Assembly (NCBI RefSeq): GCF_009733845.1
Contig: NZ_WNXZ01000001.1
Coordinates: 310,001 to 374,000 of the forward strand
Length of the DNA: 64,000 nt
Direction of reading: 5' to 3'
Source: Pseudactinotalea terrae
GTDB taxonomy: Bacteria > Actinomycetota > Actinomycetes > Actinomycetales > Beutenbergiaceae
The translations under genes and the position numbers were made by a program. Below the pieces are notes generated by a model that saw nothing but the letters and a program-made list of their open reading frames with translations, searched no databases and had not been told where the DNA came from. Positions 50,424 to 59,249 of the stretch are shown here, in pieces (position 1 is the stretch's first letter; every line of letters begins with the position of its first letter).

Positions 50424-51044
50424 TCAGGCGAGGTCGGCGACTCCGGCGTAGTCGCCTCGTGGTGCCGGCCCGGTGGTCTCGTAGTCGAGGAGCAGCAGCC
50501 CGGTGCCGGTGGCGCGGTGGGACACGAGGCGCAGGCCGACGTCGTCCGGCTCGGAGAGGAGCCGCCGACCCCGCCCGATGACGCAGGGTGCGACGACGAG
50601 CCGGAGGGTGTCGACCAAGGCTGCGGCCAGCAGGGTCGAGGCCAGCCGAGCGCTCCCGTGCACCTGGAGCTCGCGGCCGGGTCGGCGCTTGAGCTGCTCG
50701 ACCGCCGTCACGGCCTCGCCGCCCAGCAGCGTCGTCGGGCTCCACAGGCCGGTGGTGAGCGTGCTGCTCACGACGTACTTGGGCAGGCCGTTCATCCGGG
50801 CCGTGAACGGGTCGGGCTCGGAGATCTGGGGCCAGTCCCGGCCGAACGCCTCATAGGTGCGACGCCCGAGCAGCAGCCCGTCGGCCAGATCCAGCCAGGC
50901 CGAGGCCTGTGCGATGAAGGTGTCGTCGATGTAGGGCACCAGCCAACCGCCGCGATCGAAGCCGTCGCTGGTGTCCTCGTCCGCCGAGCCCGGTCCCTGG
51001 CTGACGCCGTCGAGCGTGATGAACTGGGTGACGGCGAGCTTCAT
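50424..51044 (-). CDS. Dihydrofolate reductase-like (RibD C-terminal) family protein
   Basis: A 206-aa protein with the RibD_C/DHFR fold: MKLAVTQFITLDGVSQGPG at the N-terminus, LLLGRRTYEAFG, KYVVSSTL, and a C-terminal VAPCVIGRGRRLL. ATG 51044 overlaps the SRPBCC gene stop (ATGA); the longer frame to 51422 is a shadow of that gene. Last gene of an arsR - SRPBCC - RibD_C operon, a combination often seen in actinobacteria but with no role known to me. Confidence 0.88.
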   Translation of the reverse strand: MKLAVTQFITLDGVSQGPGSADEDTSDGFDRGGWLVPYIDDTFIAQASAWLDLADGLLLGRRTYEAFGRDWPQISEPDPFTARMNGLPKYVVSSTLTTGLWSPTTLLGGEAVTAVEQLKRRPGRELQVHGSARLASTLLAAALVDTLRLVVAPCVIGRGRRLLSEPDDVGLRLVSHRATGTGLLLLDYETTGPAPRGDYAGVADLA

Positions 51045-51532
51045 GCTGCAGCCCCGTTCTCGACGAGCGTGGCCAGCGCCCGGGTCACCGAGCCCCAGCC
51101 GTCGAAGAAGCCGAGGGTCTCGTGGTGCTCGCGTGCCGACGGATCGCCATGACGCACCACCACTCGGTAGTCGGTGCCGTCCGGGTGTTCCCCGAGCACG
51201 ACCTCGGCCGTCATCGCGACTGGAGCGGGCGTCGCGGGTCGCCAGCCGCTCGAGATCGCATTGGTGAACACGATCCGGCGCTCCTCCTCGACGACGAGGA
51301 AGATGCCATCGGTGTGCGGGACGAAGTCCCGCCCGTTCTCGCTCATGAACGTGACGAAGCCTCCTCCAGGTCGCACATCGAGCTCCTCGATCCGCGCGGT
51401 CGTCGGAGCGGGGACCCACCACCGCTGCAGGAGTGCCGGGTCGGTCCAGGCGCGCCAGATGCTGTGGCGCGGTGCGCGGATGACGCGCTCGACCGTGAGG
51501 TCGAGCGCAGGGTCGTAGCTCGGTCGGGTCAT
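51041..51532 (-). CDS. SRPBCC/AHSA1-family protein
   Basis: A 163-aa Aha1-like helix-grip protein. It shows the family start LTVERVIRAPRHSIWRAWTD, LLQRWWVPAP and the C-terminal GFFDGWGSVTRALATLVE. Its start overlaps the ArsR gene stop by four bases, and its own stop overlaps the DHFR-like gene, so the three genes are translationally coupled. Proteins of this type paired with ArsR regulators probably bind small hydrophobic ligands. Confidence 0.88.
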   Translation of the reverse strand: MTRPSYDPALDLTVERVIRAPRHSIWRAWTDPALLQRWWVPAPTTARIEELDVRPGGGFVTFMSENGRDFVPHTDGIFLVVEEERRIVFTNAISSGWRPATPAPVAMTAEVVLGEHPDGTDYRVVVRHGDPSAREHHETLGFFDGWGSVTRALATLVENGAAA

Positions 51533-51861
51533 GGGTTCTCCTCCTTGGTGACGACGTTCTCGAGACGATCGGTACGGGCCTCCCAGACGCTGCGCTGCTC
51601 GGCGAGCCAGTCGTCGAGCAGCGCCAGTCGGTCTCGGTTGAGGGTGCAGGTGCGCACCCGTCCGGACTTCTGCGTGCGGATCAGTCCGCTGGACTCGAGC
51701 ACCCGGACGTGCTTCATGAAGGACGGCAGCGTCATCGGGAACGGGCGCGCGAGCTCGCCGATGCGCTTCGGACCCCGCCCCAGGGCCTGGACCACGTGCC
51801 GGCGGGTGGGATCGGCAAGCGCGACGAGCACGCCGTCGAGGTCCGCCGAATAGTTAGCCAC
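51529..51861 (-). CDS. ArsR-family winged-helix regulator
   Basis: A 110-aa regulator, first gene of the three-gene operon. The helix-turn-helix covers LADPTRRHVVQALGRGPKRI and MTLPSFMKHVRVLESSGLI. No cysteine metal site is visible, so it belongs to the non-metal branch typically paired with SRPBCC proteins. The start is GTG 51861. A TACTTT -10-like hexamer five bases upstream suggests a leaderless message. A palindrome at 51881-51901 is a likely operator. Confidence 0.9.
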   Translation of the reverse strand: MANYSADLDGVLVALADPTRRHVVQALGRGPKRIGELARPFPMTLPSFMKHVRVLESSGLIRTQKSGRVRTCTLNRDRLALLDDWLAEQRSVWEARTDRLENVVTKEENP

Positions 51862-51901: not shown

Positions 51902-52042
51902 GGATCCCAACACGCTCATCACTGACGCACCCACCAGTTTCAGCCGAGCTGTTTGAGCAGGTGGCTGCCCGGGTACTGAAGGGCATCGGCGCACCTGCCG
52001 GGTTGCCGGCTCCGGTGCTTTCCTTCGTGATCGGAGACGTGC

Positions 52043-53089
52043 TTGTCCCTGGATGTCCGCCCCGCAGCGCTGGCCGCCCCCTTTCGTCCACGGGGACCCC
52101 TGAGCGAGGCCGTCCTCGCGAGGCTGACAGGTCAGCCCGGTCAGCCGGGCGACGCCGGTCTCGCCGCCCTGGCCGACCGCGCCCTGACCGAGACCGTCGA
52201 CGTCGTGAGGGATGACGACGTCCAGCTCGCGCTGTTCGCGCTGTTCGCATCGTCGTACGGCTCGTTCGACCAGTTCGAGGCGGATCTCGAGTGGGATGGC
52301 GAGCTGATCGGTGCCCGGCGTCAGCTGGAGGCCGATTTCGAGCAAGCACTCCGGGCCGCCGTCCAGGTGCCCGCGTTGCCGACGTCGACGACCGACGCCG
52401 TCGCGCGGGCCTTGTTCGCGCTCACGGCGCAGGAGGGTGGGCCGAGCCTGTCGCGGTACCTGGCGAAGCGAGCGACACGTGAGCAGGTGCTCGAGCTCCT
52501 CGTGCAGCGTTCGGTCTACACGTTGCGCGAGGCCGACCCGCACTCCTGGGCGATCCCGCGGCTGCACGGGCGGGCCAAGGCGGCGCTGGTCGAGATCCAG
52601 GCGGACGAGTACGGCGGCGGCCGGCCCGATCGCGTGCACGCGGCGATCTTCGCTGCCTCGATGCGGGGCGCTGGGCTCGACGACAGCTACGGCTCCTACG
52701 TCGACGTCGTCCCGGCGCTGACCTTGGCCTCCCACAACATGATGTCGATGTTCGGTCTGAACCGGAGGCTGATCGGAGCGATCGTGGGCCATCTCGCCGC
52801 GTTCGAGATGACCTCCTCCATCCCGAACCGCCTCTACGGGGACGGGTTTCGCCGTCTCGGGTTCGGCGAGGACGTCACCGACTACTTCGACGAGCATGTC
52901 GAGGCCGACGCCGTTCACGAGCAGATCGCGGCCCACGACCTCGCCGGCGCTCTCGCAGAGGATCGGCCAGACCTGCTGCCCGACATCATGTTCGGCGCCG
53001 CGGCATGCGTCACGATCGACGGATGGGTGGCGCAGCAGATGCTCGATGCCTGGCATGACGGCGGCACGTCGCTGCGGGTGCCGGTATGA
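52043..53089 (+). CDS. Heme-oxygenase-like diiron/iron-containing redox enzyme
   Basis: A 348-aa all-helical protein of the iron-containing redox enzyme group (Haem_oxygenas_2, HDO-like). Candidate metal ligands are the acids in EIQADEYGGG followed by His in DRVHAAIF, then Glu in HLAAFEMTS and the His/Asp/His series in DEHVEADAVHE. Known HDO proteins oxidise amino-acid or fatty-acid substrates. The start is TTG 52043 with GGAG six bases before it. It overlaps the CDGSH gene by four bases (ATGA), so the two products are made together and probably cooperate. Confidence 0.82.
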   Translation: MSLDVRPAALAAPFRPRGPLSEAVLARLTGQPGQPGDAGLAALADRALTETVDVVRDDDVQLALFALFASSYGSFDQFEADLEWDGELIGARRQLEADFEQALRAAVQVPALPTSTTDAVARALFALTAQEGGPSLSRYLAKRATREQVLELLVQRSVYTLREADPHSWAIPRLHGRAKAALVEIQADEYGGGRPDRVHAAIFAASMRGAGLDDSYGSYVDVVPALTLASHNMMSMFGLNRRLIGAIVGHLAAFEMTSSIPNRLYGDGFRRLGFGEDVTDYFDEHVEADAVHEQIAAHDLAGALAEDRPDLLPDIMFGAAACVTIDGWVAQQMLDAWHDGGTSLRVPV

Positions 53090-53286
53090 GCGAGCAACGT
53101 CCCACGATCACGCCGTACCCCGACGGCCCGCTCCTGGTACGCGGCGACATCGATCTGCGGACCGCCGACGGCGAGCCGATCGAGCGCAGGCGACGCACGG
53201 TCGCGCTGTGCCGCTGCGGGCTCTCCACGATCAAGCCGTTCTGCGACGGCACGCACAAGGCGGCGGGGTTCCGTACCGACGACTGA
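53086..53286 (+). CDS. CDGSH iron-sulfur domain protein
   Basis: A 66-aa small [2Fe-2S] protein. The ligands Cys-x-Cys and Cys-Asp-Gly-x-His are complete in CRCGLSTIKPFCDGTH (from about residue 42), giving the 3Cys-1His cluster. The N-terminal half (ITPYPDGPLLVRGDIDLRTA) is the usual short bacterial form. Translationally coupled to the diiron-type enzyme and probably its electron carrier or cluster partner; that pairing is inference. Confidence 0.92.
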   Translation: MSEQRPTITPYPDGPLLVRGDIDLRTADGEPIERRRRTVALCRCGLSTIKPFCDGTHKAAGFRTDD

Positions 53287-53384
53287 GGTCGACTCGCACG
53301 CCGCAGGCCCTGGGTCCGGGAATGTCGCGTCACGGTGGACGTTGTGCTGGGTAGCCATGTTGCCGAGAACGACGACGGAGATCG

Positions 53385-54524
53385 ATGAGCACCGACCACG
53401 AGCGTGATCGGGCCGCCTCCGTGGTGGTGATCGGAGCGGGACAGGCCGGCCTCTCGGCCGGTTACCACCTGCGACGGCTCGGGTTCGAGGCGGCGGCGGG
53501 GGAGGGCGCGGGGGCCGGGCGGACGTTCGTGATCCTTGACGCCGAGGCGGCTCCCGGGGGCGCGTGGCAGCATCGGTGGGAGTCCTTGCGCATGGGCACC
53601 GTCAACGGGATCTTCGACCTCCCGGGCTTCCCGAAGCCACCGATCGACGCGCGGGAGCCGAGCCGGATCGCCGTCCCGCGCTACTTCGCTGCATTCGAGG
53701 AGCACACCGGTCTGCCGATCCGGCGCCCCGTCGCCGTCACCTCGGTGATGCCTGTCGACGAGCGGCCGCAGAGCGCCCTGGTCGTGACGTCCACCGCCGG
53801 TACCTGGCGCACGCGCGCGATCATCAACGCCACCGGCACGTGGGACAACCCCGTGCTGCCGCGCTTTCCGGGCCACGAGACCTTTCGGGGCCGTCAGCTG
53901 CACACGCGCGACTACCTGAGTGCGAACGAGCTCGCCGGGCAGCGGGTGGCGATCGTGGGTGGCGGGATCTCGGCGATCCAGCAGCTCGAGGAGATCTCGC
54001 GCGTCGCCACCACCTTGTGGTACACCCGCCGTGAGCCGATCTTCCGCGAGGACGGCTTCCGGTCCGAGGTCGAGGGTCGCGAGACCATCCGCCGGGTGGT
54101 CGCCGACGTCGAGGCGGGCAACCCCACCGGGAGCGTGGTCTCGTACACCCAGCTCGCCTGGTCGCCGTACGCCGTCGCGGCGCGCGATCGAGGTGCGCTC
54201 GTGCGCCGTACGATGTTCACCGCGATCGAGCCCGACGGCGTCCGCGAGCCGGACGGCAGCCTCACCTCCCTCGACGCGATCCTCTGGGCGACCGGCTTCA
54301 AGCCCGCCCTCACACACCTCGACGGTCTCCACCTCCGCAACGAGCGTGGGGGCATCGCGCTGCGCGGCACCCAGGTAGCGCAGGATCCGCGCGTGCACCT
54401 CATCGGCTTCGGCCCGTCGCAGTCGACCGTCGGTGCCAACCGGGCAGGGCGCGCCGCCGTCACGGCGGTCGCCCGCTGGCTCGGATCCGCGAGCGAGGAA
54501 CGGGTGGTGGCTGTCAGCGCCTGA
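53385..54524 (+). CDS. FAD-dependent flavin monooxygenase-like oxidoreductase
   Basis: A 379-aa two-dinucleotide-fold flavoprotein. The FAD motif is VVIGAGQAGLSAGYHL (residues 14-29) and the NADPH motif VAIVGGGISAIQQLEE (about 189-204); ATGF near residue 305 is the usual C-terminal signature. An Ala/Gly/Glu-rich insert (AAAGEGAGAG) follows the first helix. The FMO fingerprint FxGxxxHxxxY is only partly present (FRGRQLHTRDY). Family members hydroxylate amines or sulfides, or act as Baeyer-Villiger enzymes. It follows the CDGSH gene after 98 bases with its own GACGACGGAG upstream of ATG 53385. Confidence 0.88.
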   Translation: MSTDHERDRAASVVVIGAGQAGLSAGYHLRRLGFEAAAGEGAGAGRTFVILDAEAAPGGAWQHRWESLRMGTVNGIFDLPGFPKPPIDAREPSRIAVPRYFAAFEEHTGLPIRRPVAVTSVMPVDERPQSALVVTSTAGTWRTRAIINATGTWDNPVLPRFPGHETFRGRQLHTRDYLSANELAGQRVAIVGGGISAIQQLEEISRVATTLWYTRREPIFREDGFRSEVEGRETIRRVVADVEAGNPTGSVVSYTQLAWSPYAVAARDRGALVRRTMFTAIEPDGVREPDGSLTSLDAILWATGFKPALTHLDGLHLRNERGGIALRGTQVAQDPRVHLIGFGPSQSTVGANRAGRAAVTAVARWLGSASEERVVAVSA

Positions 54525-54827: not shown

Positions 54828-57800
54828 GTGTCCACGCATCGTCGCTTCGCACCCCTGCTCGCACTGACTGCCGCGGCCTCGTTGGGAGGTGCGCTGGTGG
54901 TCCCCTCGGTGCCCGCGCAGGCTGCACCCGGGGAGAGCGTGCTCGTCTCAGAGGTCGTGGTCGACAACGTGGGCGACGACAACTTCGAGTACCTCGAGGT
55001 CCACAACGCGACCGCTGCGCAGGTCACGATCGGACCCGAGGGGTTCTCCCTCGCCTACATCTATGCCGACGACACCGACACGGCTCGGGATGTCCCTCTC
55101 GTCCCCGAGACACCTGTGCCACTGGCCGCCGGTGCGACTGCGGTGCTGTGGCTGAGCTACACCTCGGGCACCGGTGCGGTCGACTCCTTCGCGTACACCG
55201 AGGAGGACTTCCGGGCCCACCACGGCATCGCGGCCGGCACTCAGGTCGTGCGCATCACCGGCCAGGCAGGCATGTCCAACGGCGGTGGCCGCGGGGTCCG
55301 GGTGCTCGATGGCACCGACATCGTCGGCTGGTCCTTCTACCCGGCCGGGTCCGTCGGCGCGGACCAGGCCGCTCATTTCCAGGTCCCGGCCGCACCGGGT
55401 GCCGCGATCCTGCACGCCGGCCCGGCGGCGCCGTCGCCCGGCACCGTGACGCCGGAGCAGCTGATGCCCGGAGTGACCGAGCCGGATCCCGACCCCGACC
55501 CGGAGCCCGAGCCGCAGCTCGTACCCGACCCCGATGTGGTCACCGCGGCCCTTCAGGTCACCGAGGTGCTGCCGGACAGCGGCAACGTGGGTTCTGCCGA
55601 CGGCTACGAGTTCATCGAGCTCTTCAACGCCACCAGCGAGCCCATCGACCTCGCCGACTACGCGCTGGTCTACCTCTACCCGCAGGACACCGCGGTCAAC
55701 ACGAACGAGGCGCACTGGCCACTGGTGCCCGACGACGTCGTGATCGCGGCGGGGGATACCCTCGTCATCTGGATCAAGAACGGCCAGAACGACGACCTCG
55801 ACGGCGCAGCCTTCAACTCGTACTTCGGCAGCGACCTGGTCCTGGGCGCCGACCTGGTGGAGACCTTCGTGGGCGGCATGGCCAACGGGAGCCCGCGCGG
55901 CATCGCGATCCGCACCAGAACCGGCTTCGACATCAATCGCGCCTACTACAACATGGGCGGCGCAGACGACGTCTCGGCCGACCGCAGCATCCGGTACCAG
56001 GTGACCACCGACCTCCGCCTGCAGGAGATCGTCGAGGCGGGTGCGGTCCCGAGCCCGGGGCGTGTGCAGGCCGATCAGGTGCCGACCGGCCTGATGATCC
56101 CGGAGGTCGACGGCGCAGCCCCCACCCTGACCGACCTCACCCCCGAGGAGATCGACCCGGCCGCCGACTTCGTGATCGAGGCGCAGATCACCGATGACAT
56201 CCAGGTCCGCAGGGTCACGCTCGAGCTGCGCAACGACGTCGACGCCGACTCGCTCACCGTCAACCTCACGCACGACCCGGGTGCACCCGACAGCTACCGG
56301 CACACCGTGGTGGCCGCCGACCTGATCGGGAAGCACTGGTATTCCTACCGGTTCCACGTGTCCGACGGCGCCCGCACGATCTCGACAGATGACGTCCAGG
56401 TCGCGGTCACCGGCACCTCGAGTGATCCGCTCCGGCTCGGTCTCGCCGAGGGCGCGGTGCTCGCCGGGAGCGTCCCGGTCACCGCCGGCGCCGACACCTA
56501 CCCCTCGACGCTGGAGCTGGCGGTCGACGGGACCGCGGTGCCGAGCGACGCCTCGCTCGAGCAGCCACCGGTGTTCGTGTTCGCTGAGTCGCAGACCGAC
56601 TTCTACTTCCGCAACGGGGTGCGGGTCGGCGAGGACGTGCTGCTGATCTTCGACGAGGGCAGCTACGCGGACACCGTCACCCGGTCGACTCCGGTGCCGC
56701 TCGAGCACCTGGTGCCCGGAGAGCCGCTGGTGGTCTCGGTCTGGGCCGGCACCAAGGCGGGGCCGTGGATCGACGAGGCGGAGAACAACGACGACTTCGT
56801 GATCTCGGCCATTCGACTGGTGCTGCCGGACGGACGCACTCTGACACCAACGGGCTACGAGAATCCCGCGCAGCTCATCCAGATGGGCGACAGCGCCGGA
56901 AAGAACGACGTCTACGACTCGGCCTTCACGATCCCCGAGGATGCCTGGACGGGGCGCACCTTCACGTGGGACACCACCCTGGTGAGCGACGGCGCACACG
57001 TGGTCTCCGCCGTCGACGGCGAGCACGAGGTGAGCGTCTCTGTGCTGGTCGACAACACGCCGCCGGTGGTGACGCCGTCGCTCGCCGAGGGCGCCACCTA
57101 TCAGGGCCAGATCGTGCTCGACGCCGAGGTACGCGATGCGACCTCCGGCACCGCGTCGGTCAGCGCGACGCTCGACGGCGCGGCGATCGAGCTCGGTCAC
57201 GTCACGTCCTCGGTCGTTCTCGGGGCGGGCGAGCACGTGCTGGAGGTCGTCGCTGCCGACGATGCGGGCAACACCACCGCGAGCACCACCACGTTCCTCG
57301 TGCCCGAGGAGATGCCCGAGACGCTCTCGTTCGATCCGGAGGACGGCGCCGTGGTGGCGCCGGGCGACATCGCGTTGCAGGCGCGCGTCGAGGACCCGAC
57401 CGCTGACGACCTGGACGTCGCGTTCTACGAGGGCCACCGGTTCGACGCCGACGACGCGGAGGTCACCGCGACATCGGGCACCGTCAGCGATGCGCTCGAC
57501 CTGGACCGCAGCGGCGGCACGGCCGGGCTGGGTGACATCAGCTCCGGGGACGGCTTCCCCTACCAGCAGCTCGAGATCCAGGTGCCTGCTGACGCCGGGG
57601 ACTCGGCGCGGGTGCGACTGACCTGGGACGGCACGGCGGAGGTGGGTGCCGACGTGATCCTGTACGCGCTGGCTGCCGACGGCAGCTCCTGGGACGAGGT
57701 GGACCGAGCGGCGAGCGCCGGTGACCCGATCGAGCTCAGCGGCACGGTGACTGTCGGGGCGCACGCTCGCGACGGCGTCATCACCGCGCTGGTGCAGCAC

Positions 57801-59249
57801 TCGGAGGGCTTCGCGGCGGCGCCGCAGTCGGATCGCGACACGGTCGTCAGCGGCGGCCATCCCGACGACGTGCCGCGCTCGGAGTACGACTTCACGATCG
57901 CGTGGGAGTCGGACACGCAGTACTACAACGAGGAGTTCTACGACCACCAGGTCGCGATCCACGACTACCTGCTCGAGCGGCGCACCGATCTGGACCTGCG
58001 GTACGTGATCCACACCGGTGACGTCGTCGACGACTACGACCAGCCCTACCAGTGGGCCAACGCGTCGCCGCAGTACGCGCGGTTCGACGACGTCGGTCTC
58101 CCGTACGGCGTGCTCGCAGGCAACCACGACGTCGGCCACCAGCTCGCCGATTACTCAGCCTTCAGCGAGCACTTCGGGGAGGCCCGCTACGCCGGCAACC
58201 CGTGGTACGGGGGCAGCTACGCCGACAACCGCGGTCACTACGACCTGATCTCGGCGGGCGGCATCGACTTCCTGATGCTCTACATGGGCTGGGACCCCGG
58301 CGACGAGGCGATCGACTGGATGAACGAGGTGCTCGCGCGGTACCCGGATCGGGTCGCCCTGGTGAACCTGCACGAGTACATGCTGACCACAGGCGGCCTC
58401 GGGCCGATCCCGCAGCGGATCCTCGACGAGGTGGTGGCGCCCAACCCCAACGTGCGGATGGTGCTGTCCGGTCACTACCACGACGCCTTCACGCGCATCG
58501 ACACCTTCGACGACGACGGCGACGGTGTCGACGACCGCACGGTGCACGCCATGCTCTTCGACTACCAGGGGCTGCCTGAAGGCGGACTCGGCTATCTGCG
58601 TCTCCTTCACTTCGACAACGAGGGCGAACGCATGATGGTGCGGACCTACTCGCCGTCGCTCGAGCGGTACAACTCCGACGACCCCACCCTGCTCGGACCG
58701 GAGGGCGACCCGTACGCCTTCCAGGAGTTCGAGATCGGCTACGCCGCCCTCGGGATCGAGCCCAGCGACCGCACCCTCGCAGCTGAAGGCTTCGAGGTCG
58801 AGGTGCTCACCGACAACGTGATCGCGTCGGTGGAACAGGTCGAAGAGGCGTCAGGCGGCGGGGTGCAGGCCGGCTCGCGAATCCTGCCGATGCTGATCTC
58901 GGGTTCGGTGGCGACGGCGACGTGGACCCTCACCGACCCGGGCGAGTACGGCTGGTACGTGCGCACCGCGGACCCGTACGGCGCGGTCGACGACTCGGTC
59001 GTCAACCGGCTGGTCGTCGACGCCGGCGGTGACGGTGACGGCACCGACGGCGGGGGCTCCGCGCCCGGCACAGATCCCGGCCCCGGCGGCCCGGACATGG
59101 TGGACGGCCCCGGCTCCGTCGACGACGACCAGCCGCTGCCTGTCACCGGTGCCTCGCCGGCGTGGGCGGCGCTGATCCTGGCCGTTCTCACCATCGGCCT
59201 CGGTCTGGTGCTGCGGGCAGCGGCCGGCCGCCGCCGAACGCGACGGTGA
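54828..59249 (+). CDS. Cell-wall-anchored lamin-tail domain/metallophosphatase protein
   Basis: A 1473-aa secreted protein. Signal peptide 1-33 (cleavage after VPAQA). Two lamin-tail-like domains lie at about 38-165 and 240-375, separated by an Asp-Pro/Glu-Pro repeat linker. Beta-sandwich or Ig-like modules cover 420-1010. A calcineurin-like phosphoesterase domain spans 1020-1260 with all metal motifs: Asp1029 (DTQ), Asp1065 (HTGDVVDD), GNHD 1098-1101, His1182 (NLHEY) and GHYH 1215-1218. A Gly/Asp/Pro-rich stalk precedes LPVTG at 1437-1441, a hydrophobic helix and RRRTRR, the sortase sorting signal. GTG 54828 follows GAAGG. It probably acts on extracellular phosphoesters or nucleic acids. Confidence 0.9.
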   Translation: MSTHRRFAPLLALTAAASLGGALVVPSVPAQAAPGESVLVSEVVVDNVGDDNFEYLEVHNATAAQVTIGPEGFSLAYIYADDTDTARDVPLVPETPVPLAAGATAVLWLSYTSGTGAVDSFAYTEEDFRAHHGIAAGTQVVRITGQAGMSNGGGRGVRVLDGTDIVGWSFYPAGSVGADQAAHFQVPAAPGAAILHAGPAAPSPGTVTPEQLMPGVTEPDPDPDPEPEPQLVPDPDVVTAALQVTEVLPDSGNVGSADGYEFIELFNATSEPIDLADYALVYLYPQDTAVNTNEAHWPLVPDDVVIAAGDTLVIWIKNGQNDDLDGAAFNSYFGSDLVLGADLVETFVGGMANGSPRGIAIRTRTGFDINRAYYNMGGADDVSADRSIRYQVTTDLRLQEIVEAGAVPSPGRVQADQVPTGLMIPEVDGAAPTLTDLTPEEIDPAADFVIEAQITDDIQVRRVTLELRNDVDADSLTVNLTHDPGAPDSYRHTVVAADLIGKHWYSYRFHVSDGARTISTDDVQVAVTGTSSDPLRLGLAEGAVLAGSVPVTAGADTYPSTLELAVDGTAVPSDASLEQPPVFVFAESQTDFYFRNGVRVGEDVLLIFDEGSYADTVTRSTPVPLEHLVPGEPLVVSVWAGTKAGPWIDEAENNDDFVISAIRLVLPDGRTLTPTGYENPAQLIQMGDSAGKNDVYDSAFTIPEDAWTGRTFTWDTTLVSDGAHVVSAVDGEHEVSVSVLVDNTPPVVTPSLAEGATYQGQIVLDAEVRDATSGTASVSATLDGAAIELGHVTSSVVLGAGEHVLEVVAADDAGNTTASTTTFLVPEEMPETLSFDPEDGAVVAPGDIALQARVEDPTADDLDVAFYEGHRFDADDAEVTATSGTVSDALDLDRSGGTAGLGDISSGDGFPYQQLEIQVPADAGDSARVRLTWDGTAEVGADVILYALAADGSSWDEVDRAASAGDPIELSGTVTVGAHARDGVITALVQHSEGFAAAPQSDRDTVVSGGHPDDVPRSEYDFTIAWESDTQYYNEEFYDHQVAIHDYLLERRTDLDLRYVIHTGDVVDDYDQPYQWANASPQYARFDDVGLPYGVLAGNHDVGHQLADYSAFSEHFGEARYAGNPWYGGSYADNRGHYDLISAGGIDFLMLYMGWDPGDEAIDWMNEVLARYPDRVALVNLHEYMLTTGGLGPIPQRILDEVVAPNPNVRMVLSGHYHDAFTRIDTFDDDGDGVDDRTVHAMLFDYQGLPEGGLGYLRLLHFDNEGERMMVRTYSPSLERYNSDDPTLLGPEGDPYAFQEFEIGYAALGIEPSDRTLAAEGFEVEVLTDNVIASVEQVEEASGGGVQAGSRILPMLISGSVATATWTLTDPGEYGWYVRTADPYGAVDDSVVNRLVVDAGGDGDGTDGGGSAPGTDPGPGGPDMVDGPGSVDDDQPLPVTGASPAWAALILAVLTIGLGLVLRAAAGRRRTRR

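Follow-up and report, generated by a model that had tools for sequence, protein, structure and literature searches.

A gene for a putative heme-oxygenase-like diiron oxidase (HDO) that overlaps a gene for a small CDGSH iron-sulfur protein raises the question of whether the two products work together, as an oxidase with its own electron carrier, and on what kind of substrate. Such a pair lies in a 64,000-nucleotide stretch of Pseudactinotalea terrae (hereafter the window; NCBI RefSeq assembly GCF_009733845.1, contig NZ_WNXZ01000001.1, positions 310,001 to 374,000), where an earlier note made from the sequence alone had drawn attention to it. The following features, in window coordinates, are considered here.

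52033-52036, + strand: GGAG, the likely ribosome-binding site of the HDO gene, read from the sequence
52043-53089, + strand: HDO, 348 aa, TTG start at 52043, PF14518
53086-53089, + strand: ATGA overlap of the HDO stop and the CDGSH start
53086-53286, + strand: type 4 CDGSH [2Fe-2S] protein, predicted, 66 aa, PF09360, ligands C42, C44, C53 and H57
53385-54524, + strand: ArsO-like FAD monooxygenase-family protein, 379 aa, located next to the pair but not conserved with it

The HDO reading frame ends in GTA TGA and the CDGSH frame begins with ATG AGC, so that the two genes share the ATGA reported in the earlier note. This overlap suggests translational coupling, and a minus-4 overlap is likewise possible in 55 of 73 tandem HDO-CDGSH pairs of relatives. 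The description of the products as fused in expression was nevertheless too strong, as a natural HDO-CDGSH fusion protein was found in none of the loci scanned. A promoter and terminator scan returned nothing above chance.

Haem_oxygenas_2 (PF14518) is the sole Pfam family matched by the window HDO (2.4e-58), which scores 197.3 bits in this family against a curated cut-off of 28.9. The Glu/His/Asp/His diiron ligand pattern noticed earlier is present as part of a larger set of seven residues (E163, E189, H199, E255, H285, D289 and H292, i.e. 3 His and 4 carboxylates), all of them unchanged in each of the 157 relatives aligned. Six of these (E189, H199, E255, H285, D289 and H292) make up the 3 His/3 carboxylate motif on three core helices, again in 157/157. 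Counted along the alignment, the seven residues fall on SznF positions 189, 215, 225, 281, 311, 315 and 318, which we take to be the SznF metal ligands, with 189 presumably the extra one. E163 aligns with this position and is Glu in all 157 sequences, which would give the predicted site the additional glutamate of an SznF-type 3H/4C set. According to a 2026 review, this is the ligand set of SznF and also of CmlI and AurF, two ferritin-like enzymes that are N-oxygenases like SznF (PMC13108848). The ligand spacing further resembles the FlcD positions given in PMC11363339.

The predicted structure of the window HDO (pLDDT 90.7, pTM 0.90) has a heme-oxygenase-like helical fold, with Z scores of up to 32.4. 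The closest fold is that of HrmI, an L-lysine N-oxygenase, over nearly the whole model (Z 32.4, 316 residues), followed by SznF (27.2), RohS (26.8) and FlcD (23.8), and most of these matches include the N-terminal domain; CADD, BesC, PolF and UndA match over the C-terminal part only (Z 15-18). Searched against solved structures, a profile built from 26 relatives placed SznF on top (2.6e-11), then HrmI and RohS, and SznF is also the nearest solved relative by sequence (1.6e-10). Neither enzyme is a full counterpart, however. HrmI is described as 3H/3C (PMC13108848), whereas the window HDO aligns a fourth carboxylate. SznF, the streptozotocin N-oxygenase, is an HDO-cupin protein, whereas the window HDO shares about 19% identity with it, stops after the HDO domain without a C-terminal cupin and is paired with CDGSH. 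Our best guess is that the window HDO is an N-oxygenase, although FlcD has the same fold and other chemistry. Because the fold is nearest to N-oxygenases, an amine or an amino acid appears more likely as the substrate than a fatty acid.

The window genome (G000) also holds a distant HDO paralog of 28% identity on contig C9 (locus L002, 1378-2781, minus strand). Only one of the seven ligands is retained in the alignment, the other six positions being substituted or falling in gaps, and the paralog is probably not a metal enzyme.

The second protein of the pair matches zf-CDGSH (PF09360, 1e-20) and no other domain. Its site, C42-x-C44 ... C53-D-G-x-H57, is the full 3Cys-1His [2Fe-2S] site that had been proposed, with ligands invariant in 24 of 24 sequences. 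The single-copy 3 Cys-1 His motif is accompanied by an N-terminal P motif (G14-P15), a combination typical of type 4 that is equally invariant (24/24), and K58, the residue directly after the ligand His, is nearly invariant. The type 4 protein RsCISD (3tbm) is 36% identical (7.7e-9) and has in common with the window protein the N-terminal P motif and a basic residue after the His ligand. The predicted structure (pLDDT 78, pTM 0.58) fits that of RsCISD with Z 9.7 (rmsd 2.2, 61 residues), as compared with Z 5.5 for type 3 and Z 2.7 for type 6. By sequence and modelled fold the small protein is thus of type 4, with a predicted cluster. A 2011 survey of type 4 CDGSH proteins included actinobacterial members, left their function open and noted a basic residue at the cluster opening, the same as K58; in the part of the survey available, no link to HDOs is mentioned (PMC3174974). 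The computed pI is 4.7 for HDO and 7.7 for CDGSH.

Whether the pairing is general was evaluated by its co-occurrence in other genomes. Of 80 close relatives taken from named genomes, 77 have a CDGSH gene at the HDO locus, a number counted separately from a neighbour clustering of the same 80 loci in which antisense frames partly hid CDGSH (cluster of 21). Among 246 genomes of the class, a strong HDO (at least 60 bits; six genomes with a weak HDO were excluded from the count) was detected in 124 and CDGSH in 146, with both in 106, HDO only in 18, CDGSH only in 40 and neither in 82. For at least 100 of the 127 strong HDO places there is a CDGSH gene no more than 3 kb away. This is a lower bound, since the CDGSH places of seven genomes did not enter the count and four of these genomes (G331, G337, G389 and G424) have a strong HDO; in G389 the two genes are adjacent. 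Relative to HDO, CDGSH is downstream on the same strand in 44 cases, convergent in 37, upstream on the same strand in 12 and divergent in 7. The occurrence of four arrangements points to selection on the pair rather than to frozen synteny. In a sample of 296 genomes of the phylum, which overlaps the class sample, CDGSH was found in 38 of 50 genomes with HDO vs 58 of 246 without; in the class part of this sample the corresponding numbers were 19/19 and 0/7. The proximity of the two genes is far above chance, although Fisher values for such counts take no account of how closely the genomes are related. The view of HDO and CDGSH as a dedicated oxidase with a [2Fe-2S] partner is strongly supported by linkage, shuffled order and co-occurrence, whereas the electron transfer that the earlier note included in it is a step that we infer. 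An in-frame TGA was flagged inside ten HDO matches of class genomes; recoding was rejected, since in the nine loci read (L175, L182-L189) the TGA is the HDO's own stop and the search had run past it.

There are exceptions to the pairing. A clade of 25 HDOs retains all ligands without CDGSH within 3 kb, and a single family accounts for 15 of the 18 genomes in the class sample that have a strong HDO but lack CDGSH. Since their ligands are intact, the enzyme can presumably work with another reductant; a [2Fe-2S] or rubredoxin gene within 3 kb of these HDOs, looked for with motifs that we assumed for such proteins, was nowhere convincing. Three residues of the ligand helix, E284, E287 and E293, are replaced in the 25-HDO clade, and E284 is Glu in 124 of 124 CDGSH-linked HDOs as compared with 7 of 33 unlinked ones. 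The HDO tree, built from 93 of the 157 sequences, needs only 2 changes at E284, so that independent pairs cannot reach significance and, with about two events, the association is a lead only; loss of the three glutamates fits a lost docking site and is suggestive only. The residues that differ most between linked and unlinked HDOs are largely on alpha-3. HDOs of the E284 type without a neighbouring CDGSH have one elsewhere in the genome in G078, G025, G040, G278 and the genome of L058, and none elsewhere in the genomes of L033 and L063 (the latter a draft with contig ends nearby). Conversely, CDGSH without a strong HDO, as in the 40 class genomes above, also occurs on plasmids of other phyla.

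In other lineages a third gene sits between or beside HDO and CDGSH. A glycosyltransferase-2-like family, assigned by weak matches below cut-off and aligned with 10 of the 12 rows first tried, occurs once each in 9 of 118 class genomes, next to HDO in all nine, and a glycosyltransferase is present in 23 of the 80 close HDO loci. A HemK2-like methyltransferase subfamily, counted without generic matches below 105 bits, has 19 places in 18 of the 118 class genomes, and at 16 of these places HDO is at most 0.5 kb away. The two were found together in none of the 118 genomes. No glycosyltransferase of this family was found in the window genome, and its one methyltransferase match is generic (100.5 bits) and lies on another contig; this genome therefore has the bare pair. 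The third genes elsewhere indicate a larger cassette, present in the window as its two-gene version. The statement that there is no linked biosynthetic cluster thus holds beside the window pair, but not for the relatives that carry a dedicated glycosyltransferase or methyltransferase.

Some loci depart from this layout. At L145 (7003-11046) two divergently oriented HDO genes are separated by about 1.2 kb; one of them is accompanied by the glycosyltransferase, and neither has CDGSH nearby. On Kitasatospora and Streptomyces plasmids (L114, L118) the cassette lies among genes for SigB/SigF sigma factor, STAS, ANTAR, CsbD or YbdK, neighbours hinting at stress regulation. A dimethylargininase gene adjoins the pair in Kitasatospora; methylarginine, considered as a substrate on this ground, was dropped because the gene occurs in 1 of 57 loci overall.

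Other HDOs with an iron-sulfur partner offer a comparison. On an Azospirillum plasmid (L119, 4470-6217) the gene for an SznF-like HDO-cupin protein shares an ATGA overlap with a Rieske gene, and an amino acid permease gene follows; we regard this as a candidate pathway for N-oxidation that is equipped with a redox partner of its own. On a Rhizobium plasmid (L196, 3473-5018) an HDO frame stands beside a Rieske gene, near GTP cyclohydrolase II and deaminase genes. Both alphaproteobacterial loci resemble the window in placing an SznF-like HDO beside a gene for a His-ligated [2Fe-2S] protein, but the partner has a Rieske fold, not that of CDGSH, and in Azospirillum the HDO carries a cupin. Proteins of the Rieske type serve as electron carriers. 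In mangotoxin biosynthesis, the HDO MboA, which bears an acidic region, has MboB as its dedicated iron-sulfur redox partner, described in 2026 by the authors as perhaps the first characterized dedicated HDO pair (PMC13185094). The window pair is like MboA-MboB in that its linkage is kept across lineages; it is unlike it in that MboB is a reductase combining flavin and Fe2S2, whereas the window partner has 66 residues with a CDGSH domain only and no flavin domain, and in that the pair is class-wide. A looser parallel is Rhodococcus AlkB9, a membrane diiron monooxygenase with an iron-sulfur-domain gene upstream in nine tested regions, CDGSH being named in a figure legend; the diiron enzyme is unrelated to HDO, and its partner is reported without a demonstrated function (PMC11854999).

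The two genes, the ligand residues, the modelled fold, the conserved linkage and the third genes are observed, whereas the metal content, electron transfer to the metal site, docking of the two proteins, N-oxygenation and a small-molecule substrate are what we infer. HDO would be an O2-activating diiron N-oxygenase without the cupin of SznF; its target is probably a nitrogen, to be hydroxylated, in a small molecule that resembles an amine or an amino acid. CDGSH would be its dedicated one-electron carrier and reset the diferric centre to the diferrous state between turnovers, its basic cluster opening probably docking on the acidic alpha-3 helix of HDO (H285/D289/H292). In other lineages a third, dedicated enzyme would then glycosylate or methylate the product. 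Taken as a whole, this explanation, i.e. an N-oxygenase of the SznF/HrmI/RohS type with a dedicated CDGSH carrier and tailoring by a third enzyme in other lineages, seems to us moderately probable. Characterized HDOs except FlcD are reported to require added reductant for multiple turnovers (PMC11363339). Reduced flavin can reduce the CDGSH protein mitoNEET (PMC9490426), so a flavin reductase could close the electron chain; a conserved electron source of this or another kind for CDGSH was not found at these loci. Counting against a carrier role, the potential of mitoNEET, about -30 mV, may be high for some diiron centres (PMC9490426).

The main rival to the electron-carrier reading is iron supply, with CDGSH as a metallochaperone that gives iron or a cluster to build or rebuild a labile diiron site of HDO. 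Many HDOs do have a labile diiron cluster, attributed to a flexible alpha-3 helix (PMC13108848), the helix on which linked and unlinked HDOs differ most, and NEET proteins are able to transfer clusters (PMC9405330). We consider iron supply unlikely, given that a Rieske gene takes the place of CDGSH in the Azospirillum and Rhizobium loci and that MboB, a known partner of an HDO, functions as a reductase (PMC13185094). A different departure from the preferred reading concerns the target: the pair may act on something other than an amine nitrogen, such as a lipid or the side chain of a protein, or remove O2 or peroxide under stress. This would agree with the SigF-type sigma factors at 7 of 56 HDO loci and with stress genes at some loci (CsbD, and at 5/80 a protein that we presume to be small heat-shock-like), and FlcD, which excises carbon, has the same N-terminal domain. 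It appears rather doubtful all the same, as the three best folds are N-oxygenases (HrmI, SznF, RohS), the ligand set is of the SznF type, dedicated tailoring enzymes fit a small-molecule product, and no stress gene is conserved beside the pair.

Two further explanations question the composition of the pair itself. The sampled genomes are related and operons persist by descent, so that HDO and CDGSH might be merely co-regulated neighbours without a shared reaction. This is very improbable in view of the four arrangements, of the presence of CDGSH in every HDO genome and in none of the others in the class part of the phylum sample, and of the remaining neighbours, among which, beyond frames over CDGSH, the glycosyltransferase alone recurs in more than 13 of the 80 close loci. 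The FAD monooxygenase-family gene, by contrast, would extend the pair to a three-component system. It starts 98 bases past the CDGSH stop, as reported in the earlier note, on the same strand and with no terminator detected by the scan in between. It has a GGAG of its own (53377-53380), a ribosome-binding site independent of the pair, and its product reaches 298.5 bits, below the cut-off of 425 for the NCBIfam ArsO equivalog. A relative of this protein was found at 0 of 80 close HDO loci and at 1 of 57 wider ones, and a role for it as a third component beside HDO and CDGSH, rejected on this ground, is scarcely credible.

With regard to novelty, HDOs and type 4 CDGSH proteins have both been described before, as has a first partner of an HDO; new is the variant in which they are combined here, which is widespread and of which no description was found in the open-licence PMC papers searched. 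Public annotation already names the two genes next to each other, where any reader can see the neighbourhood. HDOs are a large family whose native reductants are mostly unknown; Dob3, a diazo-forming HDO, is reported to have no known partner (PMC13061610). With the conserved pair, a specific protein can be put forward as the native electron donor of an HDO, and type 4 CDGSH proteins gain a possible role that is open to experiment. As HDO is found in about half of the sampled class genomes (124/246), a common metabolite or stress reaction may have been overlooked. More tentatively, and as a possibility rather than an expectation, type 4 CDGSH proteins of Actinomycetota may mainly serve as dedicated redox partners of one widespread SznF-like N-oxygenase, the pair and its tailoring enzyme making a conserved, unseen N-oxygenated metabolite. 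If so, a large part of this bacterial group would produce the metabolite, the tailoring enzyme being a glycosyltransferase or a methyltransferase according to lineage.

The surroundings of the pair in the window contain further genes. Window positions 50424-51861 hold a divergently oriented ArsR-type regulator and an AHSA1-domain gene, both covered by the domain scan of this region, followed by a reductase-like frame; the gap between the regulator and HDO is 181 bases. On the other side, a 1473-aa reading frame (54828-59249) encodes what we take to be a secreted metallophosphoesterase, with an LPVTG end and a membrane stretch like those of sortase-anchored proteins.
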